A stretch of DNA of 64,000 nt from Loxodes magnus (Eukaryota > Ciliophora > Karyorelictea > Loxodida > Loxodidae): positions 767,712 to 831,711 of the forward strand of contig CAMPDV010000095.1 in NCBI GenBank assembly GCA_946699065.1, written 5' to 3'. This document shows, piece after piece, positions 1 through 61,524 of the stretch. Position numbers and translations under genes: made by a program. The stretch's first letter is position 1; each line of letters starts with the position of its first letter. The notes beneath the pieces are model-generated. The model was given only the letters and a program-made list of their open reading frames with translations, did no database searches and had not been told where the DNA came from.

Positions 1-296
1 GCAAGATTGTTTATTTTATAATTCCCTTCCTATTAATCTAGAATATCTTTGCTTAGTATATCTCATTCTATATTTATAATAAACCAGCTTTGTAGTTTCC
101 GCTTTTTGGGAGTAAGCAAGTTTAAATAAAAAAGTTGCAGAAACTATTTTAAGATTACTAAGAAAACTAGAAGCTAGATATGCTATTTGGCTATCTTTTA
201 ATAGCCTTATTAATTAATAGGATAGCTATGATAAATGGATGTATGCTTGCGATTTAAAAGTATAAGGATTTTAGTCAAAAGTATTATATCATTCAT
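1..296 (-). CDS. 5' part of unrecognised minus-strand gene, cut by window start
   Basis: This is the first part of the gene described at 18201-19463. The start codon is at 296 and reading runs leftward off the window. About 98 residues are visible, ending in the stretch that contains the conserved-looking IEWDILSK motif. Its tryptophan codon there is TGA. Confidence 0.5.
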
Positions 297-883
297 TTTT
301 CAGCTGATTTGTACTGAATCTTATTGAGTAATAGCTTATAATATATTAAGGTGATAAACAGTATACATTCAAATAAAAAGTTAACTAGCCTATTCCTTAA
401 TAGCTGCCTTCAAAAAAATATTTGAACTTTAAAAAGATTTGCTCAAAACAAGAAAAGGCAACTTGAAATATTAGAGCAGGAATAACCCAAAAACTAAGAG
501 AAGAAACAAAATTGGAAGATTAAAAAAATAGAATGATAGGATTCTATGAAGCAAAAACTTAATCGAGACAGAATAAAATATAAGAAGCTTTAGTGGCTTT
601 AGAGAATAAAATTATATATGATAGAAAAAGTATAAAAGTCTTAAAGATTTAATGTTTAAAAGGGTTTACTTAAATAGGTATACTCAATCTTAGTTAAATA
701 TATAATAACTTGAACTTAGTTTAGAGAATTATGAAACTTATTTTCTTAAAATTAAGTTAAGTTTTACATGAGTTTTTAATAGTTTAAAGGCAAAACTTAA
801 CTATTATTTAAGATGTGCCTTGAGTTTATTTGTTTATTTGAAAGCAAAACTACGAAGATAATTAGAGTTATTATATATTAAAT
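297..883. promoter_or_regulatory. Divergent intergenic region between the minus gene and the giant gene
   Basis: About 590 bp of AT-rich sequence separates two start codons pointing away from each other (296 minus, 884 plus), so any promoters of both genes should lie here. I see no recognisable motif beyond poly(A/T) tracts. The equivalent stretches are 19464-20050, 38633-39219 and 57805-58391. The last one sits in front of only a 28-nt stump of the giant gene. Confidence 0.4.
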
Positions 884-3800
884 ATGTCAAGCTAAGGAGA
901 CATCTAGCAAGCATTCTTTTAAATTTCGTTAACTTTGCTTGTGTTCCATGCTTTCATAGCAAGTTTAGGAGGATAAATATATCTCTAAAAGCAAGGAGGC
1001 AGCTACCCTCCTAGCTTATTTCAGCAAAACTTAATATTTGCTTTGCAATAAGTCTGAGAAGATTCGGAAATCTTAGTAATGAACGGAGAGCATTATATTT
1101 AAACAGGATCATCTGGAGCTGTCTAAACAGGAGTATGTCCCGATTAATTTGATGAGAATTTTGTAACAAGTGCTGATGAAAATTACCCTTAATCATAATA
1201 AGAAATTACTTATAGGAATCCTTTAAGATATGCTGAAACATGGTCTTATATCATAGGGAAAAAATACTATACAGAAGATAACGAAAACCTAGACAAATGC
1301 TCAAAAGAAAGAGGATAAAAATACAGCGATCATGTTTATTATCCTTACGTCACCAATTGGAAAATTACAATTCGCCCTCTATATTGCAGCGAAATAGAAG
1401 AAATAATGTAGAAAACTTAAACTTTAATTAAAAAGAAGGATTGTGTAAAGCAAGGTATTGAAAAGCCAATTTTCTACGTTTTAAATCCTTATATAGTCTT
1501 CGAAGTAAAGCATTACCTGACATTCTAAGATATTATTTTTAGCGGATTAAAGCTAATTCTATCTTCTTGTGATAATGAGCATTGCTCATATTGCAAAACA
1601 GGAAATGAAGCAAGCACATAGCAGTCTTCAAATTGCTAATATTATGACTAAAAGGAATGTGCTGAAGGGTGCAAAGAAAAGTGGCTTGGAGATGGAATAT
1701 GTGATGAAGAATGCTTGAATTTTGCATGCGATTATGATAAATATGACTGCTGCTAGTGCGATAATATAGTCCCTGAAAATTGTGATATAAATTGCTTTAA
1801 TTTAGAATGTGGATATAACAAATTTTCTTGCTGTTAAAATTGCAGCTACAATTTAATTACTAACTACATATGTGACCCAGAATGCAACACAGAAAAATGT
1901 AAATATGATGATGGAAAATGCAGAAATCCTAACGAAGAAAACAATAACGAAGAAAACAATAACGAAGAAAACAATAACGAAGAAAACAATAACGAAGAAA
2001 GCAACAATTAATAAAATGAGACTTCAAATAATGAAACTTCTAATAATGAGACTTCAAATAATGATACTTCTAGTAGTGAAACTTAATAAAATACGTCTTA
2101 ATATGGGAATTAATAAAATATCCCTAGCAAAGTTATTTTATTAAGATAGAGGCTTCTATATATGAATTTTAAAACGGATTAGGATTTAATTTATGATAAT
2201 GTTGATAAAGAAAATTAGAACTGATAGTCATTTTTAAACTTTGTCGACAATTACTGCGCTTAATGATGCAATTCCTAAACTTTATAGAATAAAACGTGTG
2301 ATTCTCAGTGTTATTTATTATAATGCTAAAACTAGAATAATAATTGTGAGGATTGCCTTAGAAGTGAATGCTAAATTGATAAGTTAGGAAATAATTAGTG
2401 TGACTTAGAATGCAACAATCATTTTTGTGATTACGATTAAGGAGATTGCTAAAGACTACTATAATAGAATGACTATAACAATTACTACTATTCAAGCAAT
2501 GATTACTACTACTCGAGCAATGATTATTACGATTCTAATAGTTATTATAATGGAGCTAGTAATGATTACTATAATAATGATTATTATGGTAATAACGATT
2601 AAGGATCTAGTCCAGGATAAAGTGCTGTTTATGACTGTGATATTTACAATATGATAAACAACAGTATATGCAACTATGAGTGCGTTAGATATTGGGATTC
2701 ATATTACGCTTCATTAGAAATTATCTGAGATTGTCAGTAATGCTTCAACTAAACTGAATGTAAAGTAAGCGAAAATAGTTTGGGAGATGGAAAGTGCGAT
2801 ATTAAATGTTACTATACAGAGTGTGATAATGATGGCAATGATTGTATTTAACAATGTATGAATAGCTTGGCTTCATTTTATAGTAATATAGAGTATTGAA
2901 AGGAACAAACTTTATAGTTATAGAGTTGCACAACTGAAAAAAACGAAAATTCGATATGTAATTTTGAATGTAATACTTAAGAATGCAATTATGATGGAGG
3001 AGTATGCACAAAGAAATGTGAATAAAAAGGATGTAGTTATAATAATTTCAATAATCATAAGTGTGACTTGGAATGCGTTTGGTTAGAATGTTTCGAAGAA
3101 GCAAATGATTGCCAAAGTTGCCTTGAAAATGGTTGCTTATGACACAATATTGGTGATGGCATTTGTCAACTTTAATGTTATCATGAAGACTGCTTTTTTG
3201 ACAAAGGAGATTGCGATTAATGCCTAAAAACTGATTGTAAAATCGAAAATTTAGCAAATGGAAAATGTGACTTAAATTGCTACAGTTCCTAATGCTTCAA
3301 TGATGGAGGTGACTGTGATGAATGCATAAATAAAGGATGTGATTTAAAATACTTAAAGGATAATCTATGTACTCCATCTTGCTGATATTCAGTTTGTAAT
3401 TGAGATAATCAATAGTGCAATTAGTGTAGCACAAAATGTACTTAAGATTCTTACTTTTTAAATTAAGTATGCAATGCAGAATGCCTAAGTAATGAATGCG
3501 CTTTCGATAATAAAATGTGTGATAATTGCATTTCAGAAACTAAATGCACAAATTAGATGCTTTTAAATTCCTATTGTGATTATGATTAATGCAATAATTA
3601 ACTATGTAATTATGATTCAGGAACTTGCTAGTAATGTTAAAATTTAGGCTGCTAGATATCATTATTACAAAATAATGAGTGTGATAAAGTTTGCTTTGCA
3701 GAAGTTTGTAATTGAGATTATGGAAAATGTGATGCGTGCAAATCTACAGGATGCTAAATTTTCTGATTAGGAGATGGTGAATGTGATTCGGAATGCAATA

Positions 3801-6800
3801 ATGAAATATGCAAATATGATTAATATGATTGTATCCCTCCAAGTTAATAAAGCTGCTATGATTCTGGTTGCCCTAAGCCATGGACTTAGTTAGGAAATAG
3901 TATTTGCGATGTATAATGTAATACATAATAATGTGAAAACGATAAAGGAGATTGTGACAAAACAGAATCATGAAGATTAGAGTGCGTAGAGAAAACAAGC
4001 TGTTAAGAAATAAAATATCTTGGAGATGGAACTTGTGATGATTTTTGCTATAATGAAATTTGCCATTATGATGATGGAGATTGTGATTATTTAAGTAATA
4101 TTACCAAATGCTAACGCTTTACATCATGTTCCAATCCAACCTTTATGTTAGAAAATGGATAATGCGATTTAGACTGTAATAATAAAGATTGCTAATATGA
4201 TAATGGTGATTGCAAATAGCTATGCTAAATATAATACGGTTGTACTTCTGAATTACTAAATAACAATAAATGTGATGCAGCATGTGATAATGAAGAATGT
4301 GCAAATGATTTCAATATGTGCAAATGTACTAATAATGAAGAATAAGAAGAAAAATGCTCAAAATGTTGCACAGATTCCAAGAAAGCTTCAAGTATCTGCG
4401 ATTTAGAATGTGATTTAGAATCATGTGAATATGAAAATAATTGAAGATGCTTTATCGAAGATAGAGAAGCAATCAATTTTGGCTGCTCAAATACTTAAGG
4501 AAGATCACTATTTGTAATTGGAGATTCTGATGATTATTATCACATGTCAATTAGTAGAGATCCTGAAGGCAAAGTCAGCTTCGAAAGATAATAATTTTGT
4601 ACATAGTATAAAGGTGCAGGTCCTAATTATTAGTATTCTTCAGAAAACAAAAACATGATTATAGGAGGCAAGTAACCTTAACCAGCATTTTTAAATTTAA
4701 TAAACGTAACATTTGAGCACTTCAATAATTAGTGGTTCTCACTTATTAGGTTTGATCACCTATGTGCAAATTCGTAGATTTATGTTGAAAACGTAGCTTT
4801 TAAGGATATATCTACAAGAAGTGCAATAATATCTTCATATCTTAGATGAGTCGAAGTTTAAGATGGTGTAGGAAGTACTTCAGTTTGCCACTGGAAAGGG
4901 CATCCAGTATATGGAAATATAAAGATGAAGAATATTATTGTATAAGATATAAATACGAGACCTGAATAATTAAATGGAATATTTTTAGACGCATATTGTC
5001 TAAAGTAGGTATAAATATCAAATCTTACTGCATAGAATATTTTTAGCTAAAATAGCTATGGATCTCTAAGAATTGAAAATGTGCAGGATTTCACGATTTC
5101 AAATTCAAAATTTGAAAAAAACATGGCAATCAATGGTAATGGGGCAGCTATATATATAAAAAATCCAGTCTTAGAGTTTAAAAACTTTTCACTGGAAAAT
5201 CCAGGTCTTTAGTATAGTACTTCAAAAGGAATGTGACTAAATAAGCAAACTGGCAAAGCCTAAAATGAATTTTTCTTGAGTTGAAACAATCCAAAATACT
5301 ACTAAATTATAAATTCTCTTTTCCAATATAACTCTGCTAAGCATAATGGAAATGCTATTTCTATTATCTCAAACAACTTAATTTCTGCTTTCATTTAAAT
5401 AAGAAATTGTCTTTTTACTAAAAATATTGGATCCAGCTTAACTGGAGGAGGAGCAATTTATCTTGATAACACAGCCACTAATTATTAGAAATTACCCTCA
5501 GATTTAGGGGTTTTAATTTAGTAAAACGATTTTATTCAAAACTTTGCTGGAAGTGATGGGTTTGCTATTTTAGCTAGGAATATTTATAAAATCTTTATAG
5601 ATAAAAACAATTTTATAAGCAACACTTAGCATTCTAACGGACTTAACTATATATGAACTACCTTAAATAATTCTTGAATCTATTTCCAAAAGCAAAATGA
5701 CTTGCTATATCTAGAAGACGGGTAAGGGCAAGCTACAGTTTCCTTATAGTTTTGCTTAACTATTCAAGTATCTAATAACTTATTTTAGCTTAATGAAGCT
5801 ATTTAGAAATCAAGCAGTTTATATATTTAGGAGCCATCAAAAGTTTGTAACTTAACTAGCAATATTTTTTATAAAAACAGTTGCTAATCTATGAAAGGAT
5901 CTGCTGGAATTACAATAGAGGATGGAAGAGGAAACATGTCATAGATCTTAATTTCCTCTTCAACTTTTACTGAAAATTACTTAATAAGTTCAAAGGGATT
6001 AGGAGCAGCTATTTATTTCGACGCTAAAGGATAGAACAGATAAGTTTACATAGCAGACTGTGTTTTTAAGAAAAATATGGCTTAAAGAGATGGAGGAGCA
6101 ATAGGAGTAAAAGTTTCATTTTTATCAATAAAAAATAGTTTATTTGAAGAAAACAGAGCTGGAGGAAGGGGAGTGGCAATATATTTCTACTATTTTAGAG
6201 AATCCTAAAATAGCAATTAAGGAGGCTTATTTATCAACTCTAGTATTTTCATATCAAATAAAGAATAAGAGTATGGGGTACAAGGAGGAGCTATTTACAT
6301 AGATGGAGATCCTTATGTAGAAACTATAATTTAAGTTTAAAAGTGCTGGTTCGAAGATAACATAGTTACTGAAGGGGGAGCTATATATATAGGCTAATTA
6401 TCTTTAAAAAGCAGCTTTATTTATAACTGCACATTCAAATAAAATAAAGCTTAGTTCTAGGGAGGAGCGTTAAATCTTAACTATGTGATAGGATTATTTT
6501 AAATAGACGAATGCTACTTCGTTAGTAACGAAGCTGTTAACAAAGGCTCTTCAATTTTGAATTCAATAGGATCTTCATTTCCTTTAAATGACTTAGATAC
6601 CAAAAGAACTCTCTTAACTATATCAAAAAGCTCATTTCTAAATCATGAGAAGGGTTCTGCAATTTATGACTAAACCAAAGAAATAAAAGTAACTACACAG
6701 TTTAAGATGCTAGACTTTACAAGCAACCTAATTCATTGTGTTAATCTAAAAGAAGCGATACTTTATGATTGAAAGTCATTATGGTTCTAAATTAGGATAC

Positions 6801-9800
6801 AGTAATCTAATCTGAGAACTCCCTAATATTCATTTAGTAATCTCAGTTCAAAAATAATGAAGCTTATGAAGGGGCTTGCTTCAATTTGAAAAACTCAATA
6901 ATTGGTGCTAATGGAACCCTTTTCACTGAAAATAAAGCTTAAAATCTAGGTGGCGTGCTATTTGCTTAAGAAAACTGCGAAGTTTAATTTTTAAGAACTA
7001 ATTTTAGCAAAAATAAAGCTAAAGAAGGGTCAGCTATTTATATGCTCAAATCAGAAGGCAGAAGCTATATACAAGATTCGGTTTTTACTTTAAACCAGGC
7101 TTCATTCCGCTCTTTATTATCACTACAATACTCAAATATTTAAATTTAATCTTGCACATTTTAAAACAACTCGGCTAATGACGAAACATCGGGAATACTG
7201 GCAATTTATTCAGATGTTAATGTATCCTCAAGCACTTTTAAAAACATGATAGGAGTACAAGGAACAGCTATTTATATATAAAGCGGATCTACTGTAAATA
7301 TCAAAGATTCCATTTTTACTTACTTATAAAGTCTAACTTCGGGAGCTGCAATCGAATCTTAGGAAAGTTCTGTTTAAATAACTAATTGCAGCTTCTAGTA
7401 TTTATAAGCTTAATATAGTGCAGCAATTAGAGCTTTGAAGTCTACAGTAACTATTTAATAGACTATTTTTAATAATATCAAAACACTTGAAAATCCTTCA
7501 GCAATCTACGTGTAAGATGGCTAATTAAATATGATGAACATATAAACTAGCTAGACAAAGGAAGGGTGTATAAGTGTAGAAAATTCACCTGTATATATTG
7601 AAAGGTTAGCATGCAATAATAGTTAGGGCTAATCTGAAGGTTCATGCTTAAACATTCAAGAAGCGAGTTCATTAATTCTTAAAAAATTAGATTTATAAAA
7701 TTCTTAGTCATATAAGGGCTTTGGAGGATGTCTTTATATAGGCGGAGCAAACAAATTGGCTTAAAAATAGAGGTTCTTCATTGACAGTTCTAACTTTTAA
7801 AATTGTAGTGCAGTATCAGGCGGTGCTTTGTATATCAATCTTTATAATCTTACTCTTAAGAATTCAAAATTTTAAAATAATATAGCATTTGGAAACTAAG
7901 CCTTTTAAGGGAATAATAAATAGCGCTTCCTATAGGATAAAGAAACTGGAAGAGGAGGAGCTATCTTTTTTGGATGCTCAGAGAAACCTTGCGATTTTCA
8001 ACTAGAAGAAGTTTAATTTGAGCAAAATAAAGCTTATTAAGCTGGAGGAAGTTTTTACTACACTGAAAATGAACCTAAGTAAAGTAAAATATCTTTTAAA
8101 GATAATGTTGCAAACTATGGTTCAAATTTGGCTTCATATCCTATAGGAATGGTTTTACTTCCTAATAACTAAACTTAAAGTATAAATACAAAGTACTTTA
8201 ACTATAGCTTTGTATAGAAGCAAAATAAGCTTATTAAAACCTAATTTGTCTGAAGAAACTTATTATAAGATAATATTGATCCTTTGCCTCCTTTAGAAGA
8301 AAAAGAAAAATATATGGATTTAGCTCCTGGGTAGTTTTTCAACGATTACTGGTATGTAGGATTAATCGATAATTTTGGCCAGATCTTAACCCTTGATTAA
8401 ACAAGTACAGCCACGCTAAAAGTTTCTGAAAGTAATAGTTAGAATGAAACTTCTGTTTCTGGAAAAATAGAAGTAAAGGCATTTAGAGGAATTTTCACTT
8501 TTACAGATTTTATCGTTAAAGGAACTCCAGGCTCAGAGGTCATTTTACAAATTTTTTGCTCTAATATAGATTCAACTTAAGTTAATGAGGAGCTAAGTTA
8601 TGCAGGCTAAACTTTGGATTTTTCTGTGAAGCTTAGAAAATGCATTTATGGTGAATAATAGACTAAAGATTCATGCTTGATATGTGGATCTGAAAAAGAC
8701 TTAAAAGGAAGAGCTAATAAATATTCCTTCGAAGCAGGTGCTAATTAATGTGACAAATGCGAAGAAAATACTTATTGCTATGGAATGGCACAAGTATATC
8801 CTCAAGAATATTATTGAAGACCATAATGAAATTCAACCTAAATTTTAGAATGCTGAAATCCAGACGCATGCCTAGGCAGCGAACTATAAAAAGACCCGTT
8901 AGGGGAGTGTTGGGAAGATCAGGGTTATTACGAAAAATTATGCTCATAATGCAAAGATGGCTATGCAAACGTTGGGAATAATAAATGCTCCTTATGCCCA
9001 GATTAATAAATGAATGCTTTAAGATTGTGGGGAAATTTAGTGATTATAATAGCCTTCAATGCCTTTATAGTTAAGTCAGCTATTAAATCAGCAGAATAGC
9101 CGTCAGAAATTCATAGTGTCTACTTAAAAATATTTACTAATTACTTGTAAATAATAACATTAATTTAGACTTTTAGACTTTCATGGCCTGAAGCTATCAT
9201 GAACATATTTAAACCTGCTCACACAGCTGAAAAAGTTCCTTAGTAGTTCATGTCCTTTGACTGCTATGTAAAAGATAATTTAGAGATAGAGCCTTATTAT
9301 TTCAAGCTACTCTTGTACTCAGTTTTACCTCCTATTTGTGTAGTAAGTAGTGTTGTTTTCTTTATTATTCTGGGAATCTTTAAAGGAAGAGTAAAAAAGT
9401 ATCTTTTTTCCTATAATATGACTTCAATAGTAGTGTTGCTATTTCTATTCCATCCTGATATTATTACAATCACTACCTCAGCTTTTTCCTGCATTCAGCT
9501 AGAAGATGAACTATATTTAGTTATGGACGTGAAAATTAAGTGCTATGAAAGAGAGCACTTATATTACGCTCTTTTGATAGCTCTTCCTGCTATTATTTTA
9601 TGAGCTATAGGAATTCCGCTCTTTGCAATCTTTTTGCTATATAAGCACAATAAAAAGCAGAGCTTATACAAAACTGAAACAATGAAGAAGCTTGGATTCC
9701 TATATTTAGGGTATAAGCCTAAGACCTATTATTGAGAAATGGTAATCACTTACAGGAAAATTGCTATCATCTTCATCTCAGTTTTTATGGTTTAACTCCA

Positions 9801-11183
9801 GACTTCAACTTAAGCTCTTGCAGCTCTGTTTGTAATGGGTGTTTCGTTTATATCTCATTGAACTTATTAACCCTATGATCCAAGTGAACTAGATGAATGC
9901 GAATTTAAATCTATCCTATGTGCTGGAATTACTCTTTACTGCGGACTTTATTATCTAACTGAAAGTCTAAACGAGCTCTTTAGCTGGATATTTGTTGCCA
10001 TAATTATAGCAGTTAACTCTTACTTTCTGAGATACTGAGCATTTAAGTACTTGATTTCCTTAAAATCGTATATAGAAAATATGAATCTTGAAGAGAAACT
10101 AAGGAAAATCTGGAGCATCATAAAACGTAAGAAATATTAAGAAGACATTAAGCTTCCAGAAGAAAGCATTAATGTCCTGATAGAGATGAACCTTAAGAAG
10201 TTTACAGCCAAGAGTTACCCTTAATTTATGCTATAAGTAGAAAAAATAATTCATAGAAGGTTATAAAAGCAAGGCAAAGTATACAACCAACTCTAATAAG
10301 AAGAAAAAGAATTTATCATTAAAGACTTAGCTGATAAATATAAAATCGATCCTGTTAAAATAAGATCATTCTTAGTATTCTAGCAAGAAAATGCGCCTTT
10401 CTAGTAAGAAATTACTATCGGAAGTGGAGAAATAAAAGAAACTTAGTCTCCTATTTCTAGTTAAGAATAAAAATAGAATTAAGACGAAAAATAATAAGAT
10501 TAAGACAAAATGTAGACGCCTCGTTCTAATAGAATCAAATAGCATTACTAGAGTATTGGGGATTATGAAGATAATGAAATTTTAGAGAGCAGTCATTTAT
10601 TATCAGAAGACTAGAATTAAGTAAATGATAGTTCTGAAACAGTACAATCAAATGCCTTATGCATCAAAAATATGTTTTAGAATAAATAACAAATTTCTAA
10701 AAATTAGAAAGAAGAATGCAATTCCAGCAATTACTCTATAATTTAAGGCAATTAGCCAGAAGAAAGCAGTAAGTAATAGACTTCTTCTGATACAAGTTAA
10801 AATATAAATGCAATGCAATAAGATAAATCATTGAAGGAAAGCAGACTCTCAAAAAATTTTGTCCAGTTTAGAGAAAATACAAGAAGGGAGGGAGAAAGCA
10901 TTTACTAAAGTATGAATTTAAGGTATTTTAAATAATATAGTAATAACTTCCAGGATTAAAGCAACAATAAGGAGGAAACAAGTGAAAAAAAGAACTTACA
11001 AAACGATTTAAAAAACTAAGAATCTTAACCTACAAATGAATAGAAATCTTTTTCCTTTGACCAAAAGAAAATAAGCAATTAATAGCTGAGTAATTTTTTA
11101 TTGTAGGAGATAAAAGTTTTGATTAAGTCAATAATAGCAGAAATGATAAAAGTAATGGGAAGATAGCTAAAGAATTTGAATGA
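884..11183 (+). CDS. Giant LNR/beta-helix multi-pass membrane protein, unit 1 (1-nt frameshift)
   Basis: Read with TAA/TAG as Gln and TGA as Trp, the frame opens at 884 with a signal-peptide-like hydrophobic segment (residues about 10-30). In order follow an N-terminal region; about twenty cysteine repeats of LNR/Notch type, with C-x-Y-D-x-G-D-C endings (nt 1690-4460); a low-complexity run of NEENN repeats (1930-2000); a long region with GGAIY-type turns typical of parallel beta-helices (4500-8270); a CxxC-rich module (8630-9000); seven to nine membrane segments (9020-10040) including a GFLYLGYKPKTYYWE stretch whose Trp is TGA; and a Q/N/S-rich cytoplasmic tail. Related architectures are common among large ciliate surface proteins. 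A 17-nt intron is inferred at 11090-11106, with stop TGA at 11181. An A is missing at 6789-6791 relative to units 2 and 3, which breaks the frame mid-protein. Function is unknown; a surface receptor or adhesion role is inference. Confidence 0.85.
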
Positions 11184-11191
11184 ACTCTTCT

Positions 11192-13275: not shown

Positions 13276-13281
13276 TTTTAT

Positions 13282-14747
13282 TTATTCCTTAATAACAATA
13301 AAAATATTTTAAGAATATTTACCATTTTATTAGGCATTAGCCACACTTCCACAATTTCTAAAAGCTTAATTTCTATAATTAATTTCGCTACAAAACTGCT
13401 TTATCTATATAAAAGCTTACAGTTTCTAAATTTGGCGTATAAAATTCTATTCTCTTAACCCAGTCATTTTCTTTCGCAACTTAAAGGTTTAAAAAGTCTA
13501 ATGCTGCTTGGAAATAAATTACTGAGCAAGCTTTAGGGTCTATCTTAAATTCAGAAGTATTGATAATTTAAATTTTAAGCTTATTTAGGCAAAGACTATA
13601 GGCATGATTTTAAACTTCCATCAAAGCATCACAGAGTTGCTAAAACAGCTCAGATTAATCATTATATGATTTAACTAAAATTATCCAAACTTCTTTATCC
13701 TTTTTCTTATTCCAAATTTTCTCTTTTAGCTTGATAAAATTAGGAATTTAAGGTTACTCTATTAATAATTCAATGAAGCTTTAGTTTTAAGGAGCTAATT
13801 TTTAGAATAGATCACTGCTTTGAAATGATTAAGTATCTAGAACATAGACTAAATTATCATCTTCTACATTAGTCAAATAAATAATGCAATTTTTATATAA
13901 TAACTAAGTATTTTACTATTAGCTTGTTATTTAGCTATTTTATAAGGATTATTAGTTCACTTAATTTACTTTTTCCTCTTCTTAGTTACTCTCAATAGTT
14001 TGAATGCTAGTCTATTTTTGAATTTTTTACACTTAGGAATTTTTTTAAGACTTAGACTAATTGCTCGCTTAAGTTTCGACTAATTAGGATTTTAATTAGT
14101 TTTCAATAATTTGAAAGTTCTCGAAATAAGTTGTAAAAGGTATTATCTGAATAAAAATTTACTTGATCTTCTTCAAATAGCACTATTCTTATTTCCTTTA
14201 AAGTATTCTATATTTAGCTTTCTTGTACTAAGTTCTGATAATCTTAAATCGAATTAAATGCACATTGAATACAAACATCTAATGGAATATTGTAAACGCC
14301 AGATGAAATAGGAGGAATACTGACGCTTTCACATTTCAATTCGTTAGCTTATTTTAGAGTATTGAAGAATGCATCTTTTAATTTTTAAGTAGTACCTTTG
14401 TTACTGTTATGCGAAGAGCTTAAATAAGGTCCTACAGCATGTATTATATACTTAATTCCTTTTCTTCGTAAATTTCCAGATGATGTGAAAGTTACTTCCC
14501 CATCTTCTAGCTGATTATTCTTTAGTTTTTTTAATTTATCTTGGCATTCCTTTTCAATAGATTATCCTGCTTTTTCCCTAATAGCTCCGGCCACTCCAGA
14601 TCCAAATCATAATCTGGTATTAGCAGCATTAGTAATTGCATCGATATTGGCTTCATTTGTAATATCTCCATAAACAATCTTGATTACTAAATTTTAAAGG
14701 AGCTAGCATTGGAACATGATGATATTTTCCTAGATTTAAGACTTCAT
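13282..14747 (-). CDS. Macro-domain protein, unit 1
   Basis: From ATG at 14747, residues about 20-195 form a macro domain: GDIT at 27-30, NAAN at 40-43, GSGVAGAI at 49-56 (preceded by a TGA-coded Trp), then IIHAVGP and the SIPPISSGVYNIP loop. Macro domains bind or hydrolyse ADP-ribose, and the NAAN and GVY loops of ligand-binding members are present. A Gln/Ser-rich linker follows. The C-terminal part ends in a stretch (IEFYTPNLETIKQFC) that resembles the tail of a second, degenerate macro fold. Two introns of 16 nt are needed to keep sense: 14147-14162 and 13405-13420. With both removed the gene is 478 codons, an exact multiple of three. The stop is taken as TAA at 13284-13282, only 6 bp from the convergent neighbour's stop. 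It could act in ADP-ribose signalling or removal; no substrate can be inferred. Confidence 0.75.
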
Positions 14748-16729: not shown

Positions 16730-16940
16730 ATATTTATTTTAGCTGCTGTTTAGTATTTAGTTTAATAGTAATAAACTAGGTTCTTAATTATTTTATTAGA
16801 TATTTAGCTATATAATGTTATGCAAATCTATTATGCTTGAGTGCTAAAATTTAAATATACTAAATGATTTATTTAAGATGCTTATAAATATAAGCTATTT
16901 AGTCTATTCTTTTCTATAACTTAGAATTATTAGATTATTT

Positions 16941-18196: not shown

Positions 18197-18200
18197 TTTA

Positions 18201-30351: not shown

Positions 30352-30359
30352 ACTCTTCT

Positions 30360-32443: not shown

Positions 32444-32449
32444 TTTTAT

Positions 32450-37364: not shown

Positions 37365-37368
37365 TTTA

Positions 37369-45200: not shown

Positions 45201-48200
45201 GCTTATGAAGGGGCTTGCTTCAATTTGAAAAACTCAATAATTGGTGCTAATGGAACCCTTTTCACTGAAAATAAAGCTTAAAATCTAGGTGGCGTGCTAT
45301 TTGCTTAAGAAAACTGCGAAGTTTAATTTTTAAGAACTAATTTTAGCAAAAATAAAGCTAAAGAAGGGTCAGCTATTTATATGCTCAAATCAGAAGGCAG
45401 AAGCTATATACAAGATTCGGTTTTTACTTTAAACCAGGCTTCATTCCGCTCTTTATTATCACTACAATACTCAAATATTTAAATTTAATCTTGCACATTT
45501 TAAAACAACTCGGCTAATGACGAAACATCGGGAATACTGGCAATTTATTCAGATGTTAATGTATCCTCAAGCACTTTTAAAAACATGATAGGAGTACAAG
45601 GAACAGCTATTTATATATAAAGCGGATCTACTGTAAATATCAAAGATTCCATTTTTACTTACTTATAAAGTCTAACTTCGGGAGCTGCAATCGAATCTTA
45701 GGAAAGTTCTGTTTAAATAACTAATTGCAGCTTCTAGTATTTATAAGCTTAATATAGTGCAGCAATTAGAGCTTTGAAGTCTACAGTAACTATTTAATAG
45801 ACTATTTTTAATAATATCAAAACACTTGAAAATCCTTCAGCAATCTACGTGTAAGATGGCTAATTAAATATGATGAACATATAAACTAGCTAGACAAAGG
45901 AAGGGTGTATAAGTGTAGAAAATTCACCTGTATATATTGAAAGGTTAGCATGCAATAATAGTTAGGGCTAATCTGAAGGTTCATGCTTAAACATTCAAGA
46001 AGCGAGTTCATTAATTCTTAAAAAATTAGATTTATAAAATTCTTAGTCATATAAGGGCTTTGGAGGATGTCTTTATATAGGCGGAGCAAACAAATTGGCT
46101 TAAAAATAGAGGTTCTTCATTGACAGTTCTAACTTTTAAAATTGTAGTGCAGTATCAGGCGGTGCTTTGTATATCAATCTTTATAATCTTACTCTTAAGA
46201 ATTCAAAATTTTAAAATAATATAGCATTTGGAAACTAAGCCTTTTAAGGGAATAATAAATAGCGCTTCCTATAGGATAAAGAAACTGGAAGAGGAGGAGC
46301 TATCTTTTTTGGATGCTCAGAGAAACCTTGCGATTTTCAACTAGAAGAAGTTTAATTTGAGCAAAATAAAGCTTATTAAGCTGGAGGAAGTTTTTACTAC
46401 ACTGAAAATGAACCTAAGTAAAGTAAAATATCTTTTAAAGATAATGTTGCAAACTATGGTTCAAATTTGGCTTCATATCCTATAGGAATGGTTTTACTTC
46501 CTAATAACTAAACTTAAAGTATAAATACAAAGTACTTTAACTATAGCTTTGTATAGAAGCAAAATAAGCTTATTAAAACCTAATTTGTCTGAAGAAACTT
46601 ATTATAAGATAATATTGATCCTTTGCCTCCTTTAGAAGAAAAAGAAAAATATATGGATTTAGCTCCTGGGTAGTTTTTCAACGATTACTGGTATGTAGGA
46701 TTAATCGATAATTTTGGCCAGATCTTAACCCTTGATTAAACAAGTACAGCCACGCTAAAAGTTTCTGAAAGTAATAGTTAGAATGAAACTTCTGTTTCTG
46801 GAAAAATAGAAGTAAAGGCATTTAGAGGAATTTTCACTTTTACAGATTTTATCGTTAAAGGAACTCCAGGCTCAGAGGTCATTTTACAAATTTTTTTGCT
46901 CTAATATAGATTCAACTTAAGTTAATGAGGAGCTAAGTTATGCAGGCTAAACTTTGGATTTTTCTGTGAAGCTTAGAAAATGCATTTATGGTGAATAATT
47001 AGACTAAAGATTCATGCTTGATATGTGGATCTGAAAAAGACTTAAAAGGAAGAGCTAATAAATATTCCTTCGAAGCAGGTGCTAATTAATGTGACAAATG
47101 CGAAGAAAATACTTATTGCTATGGAATGGCACAAGTATATCCTCAAGAATATTATTGAAGACCATAATGAAATTCAACCTAAATTTTAGAATGCTGAAAT
47201 CCAGACGCATGCCTAGGCAGCGAACTATAAAAAGACCCGTTAGGGGAGTGTTGGGAAGATCAGGGTTATTACGAAAAATTATGCTCATAATGCAAAGATG
47301 GCTATGCAAACGTTGGGAATAATAAATGCTCCTTATGCCCAGATTAATAAATGAATGCTTTAAGATTGTGGGGAAATTTAGTGATTATAATAGCCTTCAA
47401 TGCCTTTATAGTTAAGTCAGCTATTAAATCAGCAGAATAGCCGTCAGAAATTCATAGTGTCTACTTAAAAATATTTACTAATTACTTGTAAATAATAACA
47501 TTAATTTAGACTTTTAGACTTTCATGGCCTGAAGCTATCATGAACATATTTAAACCTGCTCACACAGCTGAAAAAGTTCCTTAGTAGTTCATGTCCTTTG
47601 ACTGCTATGTAAAAGATAATTTAGAGATAGAGCCTTATTATTTCAAGCTACTCTTGTACTCAGTTTTACCTCCTATTTGTGTAGTAAGTAGTGTTGTTTT
47701 CTTTATTATTCTGGGAATCTTTAAAGGAAGAGTAAAAAAGTATCTTTTTTCCTATAATATGACTTCAATAGTAGTGTTGCTATTTCTATTCCATCCTGAT
47801 ATTATTACAATCACTACCTCAGCTTTTTCCTGCATTCAGCTAGAAGATGAACTATATTTAGTTATGGACGTGAAAATTAAGTGCTATGAAAGAGAGCACT
47901 TATATTACGCTCTTTTGATAGCTCTTCCTGCTATTATTTTATGAGCTATAGGAATTCCGCTCTTTGCAATCTTTTTGCTATATAAGCACAATAAAAAGCA
48001 GAGCTTATACAAAACTGAAACAATGAAGAAGCTTGGATTCCTATATTTAGGGTATAAGCCTAAGACCTATTATTGAGAAATGGTAATCACTTACAGGAAA
48101 ATTGCTATCATCTTCATCTCAGTTTTTATGGTTTAACTCCAGACTTCAACTTAAGCTCTTGCAGCTCTGTTTGTAATGGGTGTTTCGTTTATATCTCATT

Positions 48201-49524
48201 GAACTTATTAACCCTATGATCCAAGTGAACTAGATGAATGCGAATTTAAATCTATCCTATGTGCTGGAATTACTCTTTACTGCGGACTTTATTATCTAAC
48301 TGAAAGTCTAAACGAGCTCTTTAGCTGGATATTTGTTGCCATAATTATAGCAGTTAACTCTTACTTTCTGAGATACTGAGCATTTAAGTACTTGATTTCC
48401 TTAAAATCGTATATAGAAAATATGAATCTTGAAGAGAAACTAAGGAAAATCTGGAGCATCATAAAACGTAAGAAATATTAAGAAGACATTAAGCTTCCAG
48501 AAGAAAGCATTAATGTCCTGATAGAGATGAACCTTAAGAAGTTTACAGCCAAGAGTTACCCTTAATTTATGCTATAAGTAGAAAAAATAATTCATAGAAG
48601 GTTATAAAAGCAAGGCAAAGTATACAACCAACTCTAATAAGAAGAAAAAGAATTTATCATTAAAGACTTAGCTGATAAATATAAAATCGATCCTGTTAAA
48701 ATAAGATCATTCTTAGTATTCTAGCAAGAAAATGCGCCTTTCTAGTAAGAAATTACTATCGGAAGTGGAGAAATAAAAGAAACTTAGTCTCCTATTTCTA
48801 GTTAAGAATAAAAATAGAATTAAGACGAAAAATAATAAGATTAAGACAAAATGTAGACGCCTCGTTCTAATAGAATCAAATAGCATTACTAGAGTATTGG
48901 GGATTATGAAGATAATGAAATTTTAGAGAGCAGTCATTTATTATCAGAAGACTAGAATTAAGTAAATGATAGTTCTGAAACAGTACAATCAAATGCCTTA
49001 TGCATCAAAAATATGTTTTAGAATAAATAACAAATTTCTAAAAATTAGAAAGAAGAATGCAATTCCAGCAATTACTCTATAATTTAAGGCAATTAGCCAG
49101 AAGAAAGCAGTAAGTAATAGACTTCTTCTGATACAAGTTAAAATATAAATGCAATGCAATAAGATAAATCATTGAAGGAAAGCAGACTCTCAAAAAATTT
49201 TGTCCAGTTTAGAGAAAATACAAGAAGGGAGGGAGAAAGCATTTACTAAAGTATGAATTTAAGGTATTTTAAATAATATAGTAATAACTTCCAGGATTAA
49301 AGCAACAATAAGGAGGAAACAAGTGAAAAAAAGAACTTACAAAACGATTTAAAAAACTAAGAATCTTAACCTACAAATGAATAGAAATCTTTTTCCTTTG
49401 ACCAAAAGAAAATAAGCAATTAATAGCTGAGTAATTTTTTATTGTAGGAGATAAAAGTTTTGATTAAGTCAATAATAGCAGAAATGATAAAAGTAATGGG
49501 AAGATAGCTAAAGAATTTGAATGA
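39220..49524 (+). pseudogene. Giant membrane protein, unit 3 (many indels as given)
   Basis: Start codon, intron (49431-49447) and TGA stop (49522) are preserved, but the first 5.3 kb carry dozens of 1-nt gains and losses. Examples are an added C near 39263, lost bases near 39404 and 39476, an added A near 39595, altered spacing near 40027-40050, and added or lost bases throughout the LNR block. The remainder is nearly clean apart from extra T residues near 46890 and 46998. As written no full-length product is possible. The pattern, indels in or beside homopolymers with few substitutions, points to uncorrected sequencing rather than a true pseudogene. Confidence 0.55.
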
Positions 49525-49532
49525 ACTCTTCT

Positions 49533-51616
49533 ATGAATAAATTAAATTTAAATATTCCATAGCTAAAATCTTAGTTTCTCAATTAAAAAGTCATATATAG
49601 TTACTATCTAACTATTTAAAGACTTTTATTAGCATTTCTTTAAAATATCTAGCTGCTTAACTCATAAATCTAGAAATAGCTTCTATATAAAATCCAATTT
49701 AATATGGTTAGATGTATTATTACGTATTAGCTTTAAAGGAAATAAAGAGATAATTGAATCACTAGTTATGTAGATCTTAAAGCTATAAATAAATATAGTT
49801 AAATTAAATAAAGAAGAGCTCAGTTAAAGAATAACTCTTATTTAAATATTACCATTTGGCTATATAACTATTCAATTTAAAGAATAGCTATACTTAGTTA
49901 AACTTAAACTGGCTTAAAGAAATATTAATAATAGCTTCTATTAAATATTGCTTAAAAGAAAGCTAATTAGAAAGCTATATAATAGGTATCTAGTCACTCT
50001 CTTATATCATTAATTGAAATACTTTGTAATATCTTTTACTAAGAAATTTAAGTTCCTTTGCTTATATAATTCGAAGCAAATAGCATAATAAATAAATGAT
50101 CCTCAAGCTTTGGTTATATGAAAATCTAATATAGTTAATGCAATCAAAATAATTTAGTTATATATTAATAAAATAGATTACCAGCATGTTCTTTAGAAAA
50201 CTACCTTAAAGAAGTTTAAGGATAATTTAATTTGGCTAAAGAAAACTTCACTGCTATAAGGAGAAATTTAGGTATTATTTATGAAAAATACCTATAGAAA
50301 ATGGTATTGCCAAATATATGAAAATATATAGAAGAAAGTTATAATGAATATTGATCAGTTTAATTTCTCATTATTTAAGTTTACCTTTCACTAAAATTAA
50401 ATTCTAAAATGAAGTTAAATATTTATTTTGGTTTAACATTGTAAATTTAAGTTATTCTTTAGGAAATTATCTTAAGTTCACTAGTTTTAAAATTACTTAA
50501 GATAAGAAAGTCACTAATTATGGAATGTCTAAATAAAGTAGCTAAGAAAGTTTCTTAAATATAAAAGCTATAAGCACTTTCTAATATTACAGCTTTATAT
50601 TCCATTGCTAATTTAAATATTTAAGATCATAAAGATTTTTTCGCTAACTCTTTAACTCAATTTTATATCAATAAAACTCTCAATTTTATCCTTTATTTAT
50701 CCTCTAATTTTCTTTTTAATTTCTTCAATTTTTTAAATATTTTTGCTCAATTAAGCAGTTTAAGGTTTTAAAGGCGATAAAGAAGCCTTTTACTAAAGTA
50801 AGAGTTTTCTAATAATTTTAAATAAACTATGTAATTATCTTCTTCTATGAAATATCTCCTTATAAAGATTAAAAACCGGTATTTAGTTACAATCGAGTAT
50901 TAAACAAAAATATACCTAAATTAAAGGCTTTTCTTAACTTGCTTGATCCCTAAATAAAAATAGAATATAAAGCTTAAGAAAGGTTTATTTAGAAATGATT
51001 AAGCAAAATGCTTATTATCATAGGGCTATCATATCCCTCTTCTTTCTTATTTCTATTAACAAGCTTCTAAATCGATGCTTTGTTACTTAAGCTTTCTATT
51101 TATTTAAGTTTCTTAAATTGCTTGGAATAAAAGAGTAATAGAAGAAAATATTTAAATCTCATAGTTTAGAAGGAAAAATAAAATATAAGTAAAGTAGATT
51201 TAAGTGTTCCCTATCTTTGAAAGCAGATAGTAAATAACTAGTTATATAAATAGATTTAATTGAGATATAACGCTTAATATATTTAATGAGCTAGCAAATA
51301 ATAAATCAATAGCTAAAACATTTATGCTTAATTGCAAAACATATAAGATATATACCTTAAGTTAGATATTCTAAAACCTTTACTGTCGCAACTAATATTT
51401 CATTTATCCTTTAAAAGATAAGATAATTGAGAACTAACACAAATACCAAGTTCATTAATTCCATAAACAACTTAATTTTTAAATCCAAATAGAAAATAAC
51501 AATTAGAGAATAATTATTTGCGATAAGCTTCAATAATAAAAACTAATTTTATCAACCTTAAAGCAACAGAAATTAAAGAAGAATCTAGATAGAAGCAAGA
51601 AAGAAGCAAGTGCTAA
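49533..51616 (+). CDS. Helical-repeat protein, unit 3
   Basis: Same as the unit 1 and 2 copies apart from a C-to-G substitution near 50357. Candidate introns fall at 49574-49590, 49714-49730, 50758-50773 and 51189-51204. Confidence 0.55.
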
Positions 51617-51622
51617 TTTTAT

Positions 51623-53088
51623 TTATTCCTTAATAACAATAAAAATATTTTAAGAATATTTACCATTTTATTAGGCATTAGCCACACTTCCACAATTTCT
51701 AAAAGCTTAATTTCTATAATTAATTTCGCTACAAAACTGCTTTATCTATATAAAAGCTTACAGTTTCTAAATTTGGCGTATAAAATTCTATTCTCTTAAC
51801 CCAGTCATTTTCTTTCGCAACTTAAAGGTTTAAAAAGTCTAATGCTGCTTGGAAATAAATTACTGAGCAAGCTTTAGGGTCTATCTTAAATTCAGAAGTA
51901 TTGATAATTTAAATTTTAAGCTTATTTAGGCAAAGACTATAGGCATGATTTTAAACTTCCATCAAAGCATCACAGAGTTGCTAAAACAGCTCAGATTAAT
52001 CATTATATGATTTAACTAAAATTATCCAAACTTCTTTATCCTTTTTCTTATTCCAAATTTTCTCTTTTAGCTTGATAAAATTAGGAATTTAAGGTTACTC
52101 TATTAATAATTCAATGAAGCTTTAGTTTTAAGGAGCTAATTTTTAGAATAGATCACTGCTTTGAAATGATTAAGTATCTAGAACATAGACTAAATTATCA
52201 TCTTCTACATTAGTCAAATAAATAATGCAATTTTTATATAATAACTAAGTATTTTACTATTAGCTTGTTATTTAGCTATTTTATAAGGATTATTAGTTCA
52301 CTTAATTTACTTTTTCCTCTTCTTAGTTACTCTCAATAGTTTGAATGCTAGTCTATTTTTGAATTTTTTACACTTAGGAATTTTTTTAAGACTTAGACTA
52401 ATTGCTCGCTTAAGTTTCGACTAATTAGGATTTTAATTAGTTTTCAATAATTTGAAAGTTCTCGAAATAAGTTGTAAAAGGTATTATCTGAATAAAAATT
52501 TACTTGATCTTCTTCAAATAGCACTATTCTTATTTCCTTTAAAGTATTCTATATTTAGCTTTCTTGTACTAAGTTCTGATAATCTTAAATCGAATTAAAT
52601 GCACATTGAATACAAACATCTAATGGAATATTGTAAACGCCAGATGAAATAGGAGGAATACTGACGCTTTCACATTTCAATTCGTTAGCTTATTTTAGAG
52701 TATTGAAGAATGCATCTTTTAATTTTTAAGTAGTACCTTTGTTACTGTTATGCGAAGAGCTTAAATAAGGTCCTACAGCATGTATTATATACTTAATTCC
52801 TTTTCTTCGTAAATTTCCAGATGATGTGAAAGTTACTTCCCCATCTTCTAGCTGATTATTCTTTAGTTTTTTTAATTTATCTTGGCATTCCTTTTCAATA
52901 GATTATCCTGCTTTTTCCCTAATAGCTCCGGCCACTCCAGATCCAAATCATAATCTGGTATTAGCAGCATTAGTAATTGCATCGATATTGGCTTCATTTG
53001 TAATATCTCCATAAACAATCTTGATTACTAAATTTTAAAGGAGCTAGCATTGGAACATGATGATATTTTCCTAGATTTAAGACTTCAT
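51623..53088 (-). CDS. Macro-domain protein, unit 3
   Basis: No difference seen from the other two copies. Introns at 52488-52503 and 51746-51761. Confidence 0.75.
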
Positions 53089-54069
53089 GATATTATATTG
53101 ATTTATTTTAATTATGAATAGATATGCTATTATTGCTAGTAGTTATTATACTATTTTATTTTAGAAATTAATTATTTATGTTTAGTATAACTTTAATTGT
53201 TTATTCCTTTATCCCTTCAACTAATATTAAGCTTTATATCATAATTTCCTTTTAGTTTTATTCGTATAAATTGTATTGTTAATTAAGATTAGGCTATTAA
53301 ACTACTTAATTGATTAATAAATTTAAAGCTATAACTGATTAAGCAAAGCTTATTTAGCTTATTAATTAGTAATAAGTATAAATCAATTTAGCTCTTATAT
53401 TATATGCTTTAACCTAATTAAAATGTATACTTTTACATTTAGAGTATGGATAAATAGGAAAGGTATTCTATTATTCTTATTATCTTTAATTTATTGGTTA
53501 AATAATAACTCTCACTATAATTGTTCTTAAGCTTAGTAACTATTAAACTAATATGAGTTATTGTTTTTTATTCTTTTACTAAATTATTATTAAATAAAGG
53601 AAAATAATCTACTACATAAATCAACTTATTTACTATACTCTCTAGCATTTATTTATAACTATCTTATTAAATAAATATCCTTTATTTCTATGTTTATACT
53701 CTAGAAATAAAGAAGATTATATAGTTCTTAGTTTATATTACATGGAACTTATATACATTTCTATTTATTAATATAATAACTTAGATTTGTTAAATTGCAT
53801 CATTTAGCTTTAAGAGGTTTAATAGCTAGATGCTTTAGTTAGTTATTTAACTTCATTCTCTACTCTCCTACTTGTTTCCTTCTAAGAATACTTAATTGAA
53901 TTACAACTATTCAATAATAACTTATTTGTATCTATTAATAACCTTTTATGCTTTTTAGATCATTAGTTATCTTAAATTTCTAATGTTTATATATCATAAT
54001 TATTTTTGCTACCATGAGAAGTTTTATGTAGAAATATAACCATATTAAGAGCCTTAATGATATAGCTAT

Positions 54070-55070
54070 TAGAAATATATTAAATAATAATACTAATTTT
54101 AAGTTTTCCGCTTTAGGGATTTCCAACCCCGTCAGGAATACAGCAGTTCATGCTCTCTGCTGTTAAATATAAAATTTCGGGTCGCCCAATTTTAGCGACA
54201 TTGGGAACTCGGATTTTTCCAGGTTTTCCCTCCTTTAGCTTGCCTTGGTTCCGTCTTAATCTTGTATATTGAACCATCCGGGTTGCAATACATTCTTTTC
54301 ATTCTTCCTTCTTCTTTTGTTGTTCTTTTATCCAATAGTTTCTTTATTTCTATTAGAATTTCTAGCACTTCCGATAAAAATGTCATACGCTTCCTCAGCA
54401 GAAGCATTTCTTTTTTATTTTGAATTATTTTCCTTGATTTGCTTGCTCTTTCTAGGCTTCGATTTCCATTTGTATAGCTCCAGTTTCCCTTTACTCTTTC
54501 TTAAAAGTTTACAATTTCTCTTCTACTTTTCCGAGTCTGTTATCCAGTTCAGTCTGTTTCTAAAGCTAATTTTAGGATTTGTTAGTCTGACTTTGTGAGA
54601 TATTCCAAAAGGCGTTAAGATCTCTTTCCTAGGACATAAGTCTTGACTCAATTCCTTCTGCTAGGTCTAGCTTTGCCATCAGCATATCATTGTCCTTCTT
54701 CAATCTCTTGACCTCTTCCTGGAGGTTCAGTACCACTTTGATGAGCTACTCCATGCTCATCTGGCCAGAAGGGTTGAACTCTGATACCTCCTGGTGGAGA
54801 ACAGACTTCATCTGCTTCCTCGGTTTCTCGCTTGAAGTTGGAATTTCCGTGTGTATATTTTTCAAGGTTGGCTTTCGTTCGTTTTGTTAGATCCCAAGTT
54901 TTTAGTTCAGTGTTGGTTAAGGTTGTGATAGAGAAGATTATTAAGATTATTAAGACTTGGCTTCTTGCTTCCTCCCTTGCTTTTTGGCTTAGGAAGAGGT
55001 GGCATAGAAGCCTGACTTGAAACCTTGAAGCATTTTTTGATGGTAAAATAACTAGAAATATATTAAATAA
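54070..55070 (-). mobile_element. GC-richer insertion, unit 3
   Basis: Flanking 18-bp repeats at 54070-54087 and 55053-55070. Two substitutions differ from the other units, near 54328 (A to T) and 55023 (G to C). The first turns a TAA codon of one minus-strand frame into AAA, leaving a 71-codon stretch (54192-54407) open even in the standard code. I do not think that stretch is the gene. Confidence 0.65.
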
Positions 55071-55281
55071 ATATTTATTTTAGCTGCTGTTTAGTATTTA
55101 GTTTAATAGTAATAAACTAGGTTCTTAATTATTTTATTAGATATTTAGCTATATAATGTTATGCAAATCTATTATGCTTGAGTGCTAAAATTTAAATATA
55201 CTAAATGATTTATTTAAGATGCTTATAAATATAAGCTATTTAGTCTATTCTTTTCTATAACTTAGAATTATTAGATTATTT

Positions 55282-56537
55282 ATGCCAAACTAATGTTTTA
55301 GTGATGCTTGGCCTTTGTATTCATTAATAGCTTTCACTTTGTTTAGATCTTATAATCCTTATTATCTGCTTAATTACCTTACATTCATTTAACTTTAAAT
55401 AATTTAAAGGAATTTTGCTTTCTGCTAACTAGAAAATGTGGAAATAAAAGAAATAGGCAAAAGATTTAAGGAATATAAGATTAAAATGCTACAATCCAAA
55501 TGCTTGTAAAAGCAACTTTATAAAGGAGACCAGAACCATAATATAAATCTAGCAAACTTACTCTCACAAAATAACTCTTATTACATAATAAAAAAGTTAA
55601 AGTTTCCTTCTATTGGACATTAAATATTAGTGTAATATACTAAAGGAAAAAATCACTTTTAAAGAAATTTATGCAGCTATTCTCTGATAAAGTTGATATA
55701 CAAAATTGATATTTGGAAAAACTAAAAAGAGGAATAGCAAACTTAATTTCCATATCAATACTTTTGAGACTAAAATAATCAAGCAGTCAAATCAAGAAAA
55801 ACCTCAAATAAAAATAGATTAACTCTTTTCTGCAGTTATATAATCCTTATCTAAAGCATATATGATCAGTTGATATATATTCCCTTATTAGATATAAAAT
55901 TAATAATTAAAGCTTAACATCAAGAAAATTCATAACTATAATCCCTTTACAATATGGCTTATTTAAGGAACAGAAGGAAATAATAGATTAAAGGGTTTAA
56001 CTTTATTTTTATAGAGTAAAGAACATTAAAGCTAAATATAATAAATTAATAAAAATAGCTTTCTACGATAAAACTAAGAACTAACGAAAGATGTTGAAGA
56101 CAAATTTAAAATTAAAGCATAAATTGAGAAGTAAATTATATATCAATAAATGAAAATTTAAACATATCTTGAAAATGTTCTACTATGCAAAAGCTGTAGA
56201 AGATTTAGAAATTTTAAGTGCTATTGTAATAAAATTTTAAAAGAAATATTAAGCAAAAGATAATAAATTGTTGACAAATATAAAGATATATGCATGCTTT
56301 GTATTTTAGCCTATAAATATCATTTAAATTTTTAATTTATTTAATTAGTTAAAATTTCATTTTAATTAGCAAATTTTTATTATAGATTGGTTTTAAATTA
56401 TCTCTCATCCTGCTAGTTAGAATGAAAATAATTTGATTCCTTCTTAAGATAACAGGAAAGCTATAAATATTGTAGGAGTAAGTTTTTTAGACTCTTAAAT
56501 AGAAATATTGGAAGCAAATCACTATTTAAATGCTTAA
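55282..56537 (+). CDS. Unrecognised plus-strand gene, unit 3
   Basis: Same as the unit 1 copy, with stop TAA at 56535. No difference noticed. Confidence 0.5.
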
Positions 56538-56541
56538 TTTA

Positions 56542-57804
56542 TTATATTTTATTTATTTTTAATTGATAACCTAAATTTAGAAATTCCTCTTTGAAGTCAT
56601 AAATAAAAATGTCCTTGTTATCAATTATTTTATCCTTGTATTTGATAGCTTCTTTCTACTTATCACAATGAAGAAAGGCAATCATTATAATATCAGTTAT
56701 AAGTTATATTTCATAATAATCTTCTAGGATAATTTCTTGCTTTTATTATCTCCTAGAGCGATAAAAAGAAAGTTATAAATTTAAATTAGATTTTAAAGAC
56801 TTAATATTTTAAATAATGAGGATTTAGCTTTAAGATTATATTAATACATCTCTTTTGACTATCTCTTTGGCTTTCAATTATTTATTATTGCATTTAGTTT
56901 AACCTCATCACTTATCTATGATATCCTTAATATATTTTAATTCTTTTTCTTAAAATGTCGAATTATTTCAATGAAAACAAATAAGGTAAAGCATATTAAT
57001 ATTATGCACCTTACTTGTATCATTAAAATAACTTATCCGTTCGCTTTCCCATAAAGTCTTTATTTCTAAAGGACTTCGTCCTAGCTATATATAATGCTCT
57101 CCAAAATTTATTGCTCCTTATGTTTTTAAAGTAACTTAACTATAAATAAATTTTCCATTATACTTATCTATAGAATGCTTCACATTATATGGATAATATC
57201 TGACTATCAAGTCTTTGAGTTTTAAGCTGGAAATGTAAGTTTATATTATTTATTTAATTGTATAAAAATTAATGTAAGCTGGGAATTTTATTTAGAGCAA
57301 AAGCAGCATTTCTTTTCTAAGTTATTCCTTTAAAAGTAAGAAAAGTTTAATATACTTAGTTTGCTAAATATCTTCATGTAATTTCTTTTTATTTTCAGTA
57401 TATGAAGTACAGTCTAAGCCATAAAGCAAGCAGATTGGTTCTATTAGGTGTAAATTGAAACGTGAAAGTAAATCTTAGCACTTAATTATTTAAATTTCTT
57501 AAAAAGAAGCAAGATTGTTTATTTTATAATTCCCTTCCTATTAATCTAGAATATCTTTGCTTAGTATATCTCATTCTATATTTATAATAAACCAGCTTTG
57601 TAGTTTCCGCTTTTTGGGAGTAAGCAAGTTTAAATAAAAAAGTTGCAGAAACTATTTTAAGATTACTAAGAAAACTAGAAGCTAGATATGCTATTTGGCT
57701 ATCTTTTAATAGCCTTATTAATTAATAGGATAGCTATGATAAATGGATGTATGCTTGCGATTTAAAAGTATAAGGATTTTAGTCAAAAGTATTATATCAT
57801 TCAT
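56542..57804 (-). CDS. Unrecognised minus-strand gene spanning unit 3 and the partial unit 4
   Basis: A complete 420-residue frame identical in layout to 18201-19463. Its 5' end lies in the truncated fourth unit, so the array break leaves this gene whole together with its upstream region. Confidence 0.6.
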
Positions 57805-58419
57805 TTTTCAGCTGATTTGTACTGAATCTTATTGAGTAATAGCTTATAATATATTAAGGTGATAAACAGTATACATTCAAATAAAAAGTTAACTAGCCTA
57901 TTCCTTAATAGCTGCCTTCAAAAAAATATTTGAACTTTAAAAAGATTTGCTCAAAACAAGAAAAGGCAACTTGAAATATTAGAGCAGGAATAACCCAAAA
58001 ACTAAGAGAAGAAACAAAATTGGAAGATTAAAAAAATAGAATGATAGGATTCTATGAAGCAAAAACTTAATCGAGACAGAATAAAATATAAGAAGCTTTA
58101 GTGGCTTTAGAGAATAAAATTATATATGATAGAAAAAGTATAAAAGTCTTAAAGATTTAATGTTTAAAAGGGTTTACTTAAATAGGTATACTCAATCTTA
58201 GTTAAATATATAATAACTTGAACTTAGTTTAGAGAATTATGAAACTTATTTTCTTAAAATTAAGTTAAGTTTTACATGAGTTTTTAATAGTTTAAAGGCA
58301 AAACTTAACTATTATTTAAGATGTGCCTTGAGTTTATTTGTTTATTTGAAAGCAAAACTACGAAGATAATTAGAGTTATTATATATTAAATATGTCAAGC
58401 TAAGGAGACATCTAGCAAG
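57509..58419. repeat. Partial fourth unit, right end of the array
   Basis: The first 911 bp of the unit recur without visible change. Identity stops abruptly after 58419. The break falls 28 nt into the reading frame of the giant gene, so this copy keeps the whole divergent intergenic region and the start codon but no gene body. Confidence 0.93.
58392..58419 (+). pseudogene. Stump of a fourth giant gene
   Basis: Start codon plus eight further codons and one base (MSSQGDIQQ) before sequence identity ends. What follows, starting TAACAAGAAAC, does not resemble the gene body. Confidence 0.8.
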
Positions 58420-61480: not shown

Positions 61481-61524
61481 AATAAAATCAGAGTTAAAAA
61501 GAAAAAAATTTTCTAGAGTTAAAA

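Follow-up and report, generated by a model that had tools for sequence, protein, structure and literature searches.

Tandem arrays of surface-antigen genes are already known in Tetrahymena. In Tetrahymena thermophila, the Ser surface-antigen genes form tandem arrays, mostly of a single subtype and orientation, that have been attributed to duplication or recombination (PMC4136848), and young gene families of Tetrahymena undergo frequent tandem duplication by ectopic recombination, for which unequal crossing-over has been proposed (PMC6564038). The array described here, from Loxodes magnus, appears comparable to the Ser arrays in that both consist of ciliate cysteine-rich surface-protein genes in tandem. 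However, Ser proteins are GPI-linked, whereas the Loxodes protein, of 3,597 aa, combines LNR and PMP-type repeats with a C-terminal part that is hydrophobic, and its gene shares a 19-kb cassette with another gene and a mobile element. The young Tetrahymena families concern other genes in a distant ciliate, and a 19-kb unit is absent from the text of PMC6564038 that was consulted.

The macronuclear (MAC) genome of L. magnus, according to its description, is read with table 27, in which UGA is either stop or tryptophan, contains repeats and LINE-like elements, has a heterozygosity of ~0.6%, and shows extra k-mer peaks at ~170x and ~430x that its authors interpret as some duplication or paralogy (PMC11441545). 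There is also a separate MIC assembly of 848 Mbp. The consulted part of the description makes no mention of the present array; its TRF settings end in 2000 which, taken as the period limit, would leave a 19-kb unit unlisted. A literature search for tandem duplication in Loxodes found no paper. The array looks like a fairly ordinary recent tandem duplication and, judged from its sequence, is quite likely to be a real, young, head-to-tail duplication of a ~19.17-kb block. The genes of this block are one for a macro domain and a giant one whose product is probably a surface protein, and a retroelement-like sequence has inserted into it.

The window, that is, the whole stretch of 64,000 nucleotides analysed here, corresponds to C95:767712-831711 at the right end of contig C95, and its last base is the contig end. 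Compared with itself, the window matches on the plus strand at 1-39247 against 19168-58419 (99.84% identity) and at 1-20078 against 38337-58419 (99.70%), which confirms the three full units and partial fourth at near identity reported by the first-pass annotation. No self-comparison match longer than 300 bp extends the array past 58419. The copies are direct head-to-tail repeats of one unit, i.e. a tandem segmental duplication, and all lie on the plus strand: copy A (912..20078; 19,167 bp, its phase set at the right-hand break), copy B (20079..39247; 19,169 bp) and copy C (39248..58419; 19,172 bp), preceded by a further partial copy, copy 0, whose last 911 bp fall within the window (1..911). 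The array had been placed at 1..58419; as assembled, it occupies C95:764301-826130 and begins 3,411 bp upstream of the window, in copy 0. This upstream part (C95:764301-767711) consists of unit positions 12595-15772 (C95:764301-767478) joined to unit positions 18934-19167 (767478-767711), so that copy 0 is without 3,161 bp (unit positions 15773-18933), a deletion private to it.

In copy B the giant gene (20051..30844, plus strand; other starts at 884, 39220 and 58392) is a single frame when TAA and TAG code for glutamine and any TGA within the frame for tryptophan, a code use that agrees with table 27. This one frame (20051-30841) unites the LNR, PMP-repeat and C-terminal parts; it contains 25 in-frame TGA codons in 20225-30841, and the other two frames of 20225-31200 contain 41 and 159. 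A bacterial reading was dropped, as no ORF exceeds 117 aa when table 11 is applied, neither a tRNA nor an Rfam match at gathering score is present, and the ciliate code fits. The predicted protein has a hydrophobic N-terminus that resembles a signal peptide (judged by eye), LNR (Notch) repeats in seven stretches that each pass alone (Pfam, E 9.9e-40) and Chlam_PMP repeats (Pfam, E 5.6e-11). Its hydrophobic C-terminal part matches no Pfam family above cut-off, and the best structure match to that part has an E-value of only 0.57. From these domains the product is probably a cell-surface protein. The second gene of the unit encodes a macro domain (33274..33870 in copy B, minus strand; Pfam PF01661, E 1e-29).

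As the first-pass annotation had noted, each unit also carries the same mobile insertion: a retroelement-like sequence of ~960 bp lies at the matching place in all three full units, at 15742..16698 in copy A, ~34909-35865 in copy B and ~54083-55039 in copy C. This is a high-copy element, with at least 36 relatives at 93-95% identity among the best 40 of 4,129 candidates scored. Its site is empty in a related copy of the unit on contig C137, and an 18-bp direct repeat, read by eye, borders the insertion in the array; two of the four other element copies looked at have 14-17-bp repeats, also by eye. A target-site duplication of variable length together with an empty site is the pattern of a non-LTR-type retroelement, and two readings of the element gave no Pfam match. 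The absence of the element from copy 0 was considered as a second empty site and rejected, since the breakpoint of the private deletion falls ~30 bases inside the element. The deletion is thus later than the insertion.

The comparison with contig C137 covered 30 kb (C137:206001-236000), in which C137:209081-224413 is the single related copy and corresponds to the unit from ~14.8k, through 19167|1, to ~12.49k. Across the giant gene the identity is 0.86-0.99 per 500-bp bin. The match is continuous through unit 911|912, which therefore is not the tandem join. Unit ~12.5k-14.8k is missing from C137, and it is within this gap, at 12595, that unit sequence takes over from the left flank of the array. 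From this left boundary I infer that the join lies at unit 12594|12595 (31762..31763 in the window, with equivalents at 12594|12595 and 50935|50936). The same boundary was considered as evidence against an assembly loop and dropped, since it is the boundary itself that defines the join. In the likeliest course of events, a first duplication would have created this join, and unequal crossing-over between near-identical copies would then alter copy number and keep the copies alike. All three full copies share the insertion and C137 lacks it, which supports tandem duplication.

By simple counting, dN/dS between copy B and C137 is 0.38 over 3,079 codons (20225-29500) and 0.85 over 442 codons after 29500. 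Gaps between the two in the giant gene, four on either side of 30094, are all multiples of three before that position and of 1-2 bases, not multiples of three, after it. Because of these four frame differences from C137, the 3' end of the giant gene, as predicted, is uncertain.

How far the copies are distinct was asked of their differences. Copies A and B differ by seven substitutions and two indels, and the seven substitutions separate copy A from both B and C. The earlier picture of substitutions scattered between units does not hold, as all seven lie within unit positions 943-5410 (4,467 bp), a clustering matched in tightness by a fraction of only 0.001 of 200,000 random draws. C137 has the base of A at four of the seven sites and that of B at three, so that derived states occur on both sides and two real versions exist, as alleles or as copies. 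Copy 0 has two private substitutions in 3,178 bp, and copies 0, A, B and C all differ pairwise at one position or more, some of these differences perhaps being errors. The units thus do show real differences, namely the seven substitutions polarised both ways, which alleles could also provide, and the private deletion of copy 0.

Comparison of copies B and C gives 12 runs of substitutions, some of them due to shifts of the alignment where indels lie close together, and 40 indel runs, of which 39 fall within the first 8 kb of copy C. The first 11.6 kb contain 39 B/C indels, 38 with a length of 1 bp and 33 next to the same base. The giant-gene frame falls into 30 segments in copy C, two in copy A and one in copy B. 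Decay of copy C was rejected as an explanation, because 38 of 39 indels are of a single base, compared with the giant-gene gaps between B and C137 before 30094, which are multiples of three. Rather, I infer that these indels are unpolished sequencing errors, probably retained from one poor read. For the 706-Mbp MAC assembly, Falcon joined HiFi reads whose overlaps could be as low as 96% identity, and Racon polishing used only reads of mapping quality >=20 (PMC11441545); near-identical units would attract few such reads, so that their errors would stay unpolished and the units themselves unresolved. A caution follows for the L. magnus assembly at large, in which unpolished stretches in near-identical repeats may mimic pseudogenes.

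The rival that fares best is one that leaves the duplication real and questions its extent. The 3.4 units could have arisen because the assembler walked repeatedly through two true copies, or through the alleles at a locus that is itself duplicated, and I would put even chances on this having happened. The tolerant overlaps and selective polishing just described speak for it, as do the stretch in copy C that resembles read errors, the limitation of A/B variants to 4.5 kb, and the way in which the array runs into the contig end. On the other side stand the mutual differences of all four copies, errors permitting, and the existence of tandem clusters of the same family with unequal scores elsewhere in the assembly (below). 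A and B may also be alleles placed in series, since seven differences in 19 kb are below the heterozygosity of the species. The earlier reading of the locus as a recent and large amplification around a giant, probable surface protein, which might raise its dosage or supply variants of it, remains the best one, whereas the number of 3.4 copies is unproven: A and B share 14.7 kb with zero substitutions, and over such a length a fresh duplication and the repeated walking of one stretch look alike.

Whether the family is arranged in tandem elsewhere bears on both the preferred reading, a real young duplication, and its rivals. In the whole assembly (705,730,643 bases in 7,843 contigs), the C-terminal domain of the giant protein gave at least 106 matches, the best 105 of 1,162 candidates having been scored; the cluster count used 105 matches, with one 37-aa fragment dropped and the three array copies included. 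Among these 105 listed hits, 20 pairs of neighbours share a strand and lie no more than 35 kb apart, on nine contigs, where 0.27 such pairs would be expected at random placement, and there are five opposite-strand neighbours; 30 of the 105 belong to same-strand clusters. Apart from C95, eight contigs carry such clusters of giant-gene relatives on one strand at 15-32 kb spacing, for instance four members at ~17 kb on C26, five at ~16 kb on C181 and four at 30-32 kb on C38. The two members have unequal scores in 17 of the 20 same-strand pairs, on seven contigs; the equal ones are two pairs on C95 and one on C1358. Local comparison of tandem pairs gave identities of 97.5% on C43 and 99.25% on C27, each over 400 bp without gaps, and 100% over 1,200 bp on C268. 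These three pairs (C268, C27 and C43 at 20 kb) come from five candidates picked for equal hit scores, the others being C38 at 60 kb and a second one on C43 at 43 kb. Looping of a single sequence cannot produce tandem members that have diverged, whereas it could have produced the C268 pair. An assembly habit may therefore still be at work, given the complete identity of the C268 pair and the equal scores of the C1358 and C95 pairs. A family with at least 105 matched places, some of them perhaps alleles or duplicate contigs, and with tandem clusters of graded likeness offers a testable case in a host lineage reported to be without extensive germline-soma DNA elimination.

A pure assembly loop or chimeric read, with one copy only and a false tandem join, is improbable. 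It would readily explain the near-perfect identity of the units, it has a possible parallel in the identical C268 pair, and it would not be out of place in a repeat-rich genome whose authors attribute a difference in size between their assemblies to misassembled low-complexity repeats (PMC11441545). It is opposed by the two versions polarised in both directions, even if these are possibly alleles, by the private deletion in copy 0, and by the tandem pairs elsewhere at 97.5% and 99.25% identity; taken together, the polarised versions, the deleted copy and the family clusters argue against it. Serial reading of a 19.17-kb extrachromosomal circle, whose circular continuity would look identical, is very improbable, as the left end of the array is attached to 764 kb of contig and searches with unit 912-4911, ~11133-15633 and 16733-911 found, besides C95, only C137 at 90-96% (for the remainder of the unit, the searches used protein sequence or included the element).

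A bolder extension of the preferred reading, that of a real duplication, is that the assembly shows only part of a longer array, in which active unequal crossing-over homogenises most of the unit but spares the cysteine-rich 5' half of the giant gene, so that distinct versions of this half persist. I consider this improbable on present evidence. If true, tandem cassettes of this family would generally drive the diversification of surface receptors in karyorelict ciliates, and this diversity would pass straight to the expressed nucleus in a lineage reportedly without extensive genome editing.

Finally, the right edge of the array deserves comment. Copy C ends with the first 28 bases of a fourth giant-gene copy (58392..58419, plus strand), cut inside codon 10, where it is joined at 58420 to the right flank (58420..64000, plus strand), and the contig terminates 5,581 bp later, at 64000. 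The flank encodes WD40 repeats and is a member, truncated on its left, of a dispersed gene family. Of the 41 non-self matches to 58300-59000, 34 begin exactly at 58420, which suggested at first that a mobile element has its 5' terminus there. That idea was rejected because seven other loci of the WD40 family share upstream sequence with one another (21 of 21 pairs; two of the seven are identical, and L003 and L005 have ~500 bp of other sequence in between). The member in the window does not share it, and is thus itself cut at 58420. The 58419|58420 junction could reflect either a genuine break or a chimeric read, and the flank, at less than 6 kb, could rest on one read; the junction is not proof that the array ends there. 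The segment 58870-61230, proposed by the first-pass annotation as a single-copy control for read depth, is unsuited to that use, since it has at least 40 non-self matches in the same assembly at 79-88% identity among the best 40 of 1,756 candidates, at ~39 or more places (two matches on C833 adjoin). A flank that looks unique can therefore belong to a multi-copy family. The last part of the flank, 63287-64000, consists of an 80-bp tandem repeat.

The mobile insertion carried by all three tandem units (15742-16698 in copy A, with equivalents at about 34909-35865 in copy B and 54083-55039 in copy C) is a high-copy element of about 960 bp, which has a (TAA)n-like end and direct repeats of 14-18 bp. 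By its sequence features it resembles a derivative of a non-LTR retroelement; a Pfam search with two readings of the element returned no match. This element, rather than the giant gene, led to another spaced repeat, on contig C268, where two loci (340001 and 360899) lie 20,898 bp apart and are 100% identical across the 1,200 bp compared.

Two relatives of the giant gene, with nearly equal scores, lie 17 kb apart in opposite orientation on contig C12 (1478526, plus strand, and 1495831, minus strand), possibly as an inverted duplication.

The right flank of the array (58420-64000) is a member of a WD40-gene family found in at least about 39 other dispersed places at 79-88% identity, and the downstream side of several of these, as judged by eye, is close to contig ends. 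The gene could be mobile or satellite-linked. At 63287-64000 an 80-bp tandem repeat, comprising about nine copies that are 99% matched, reaches the contig end.
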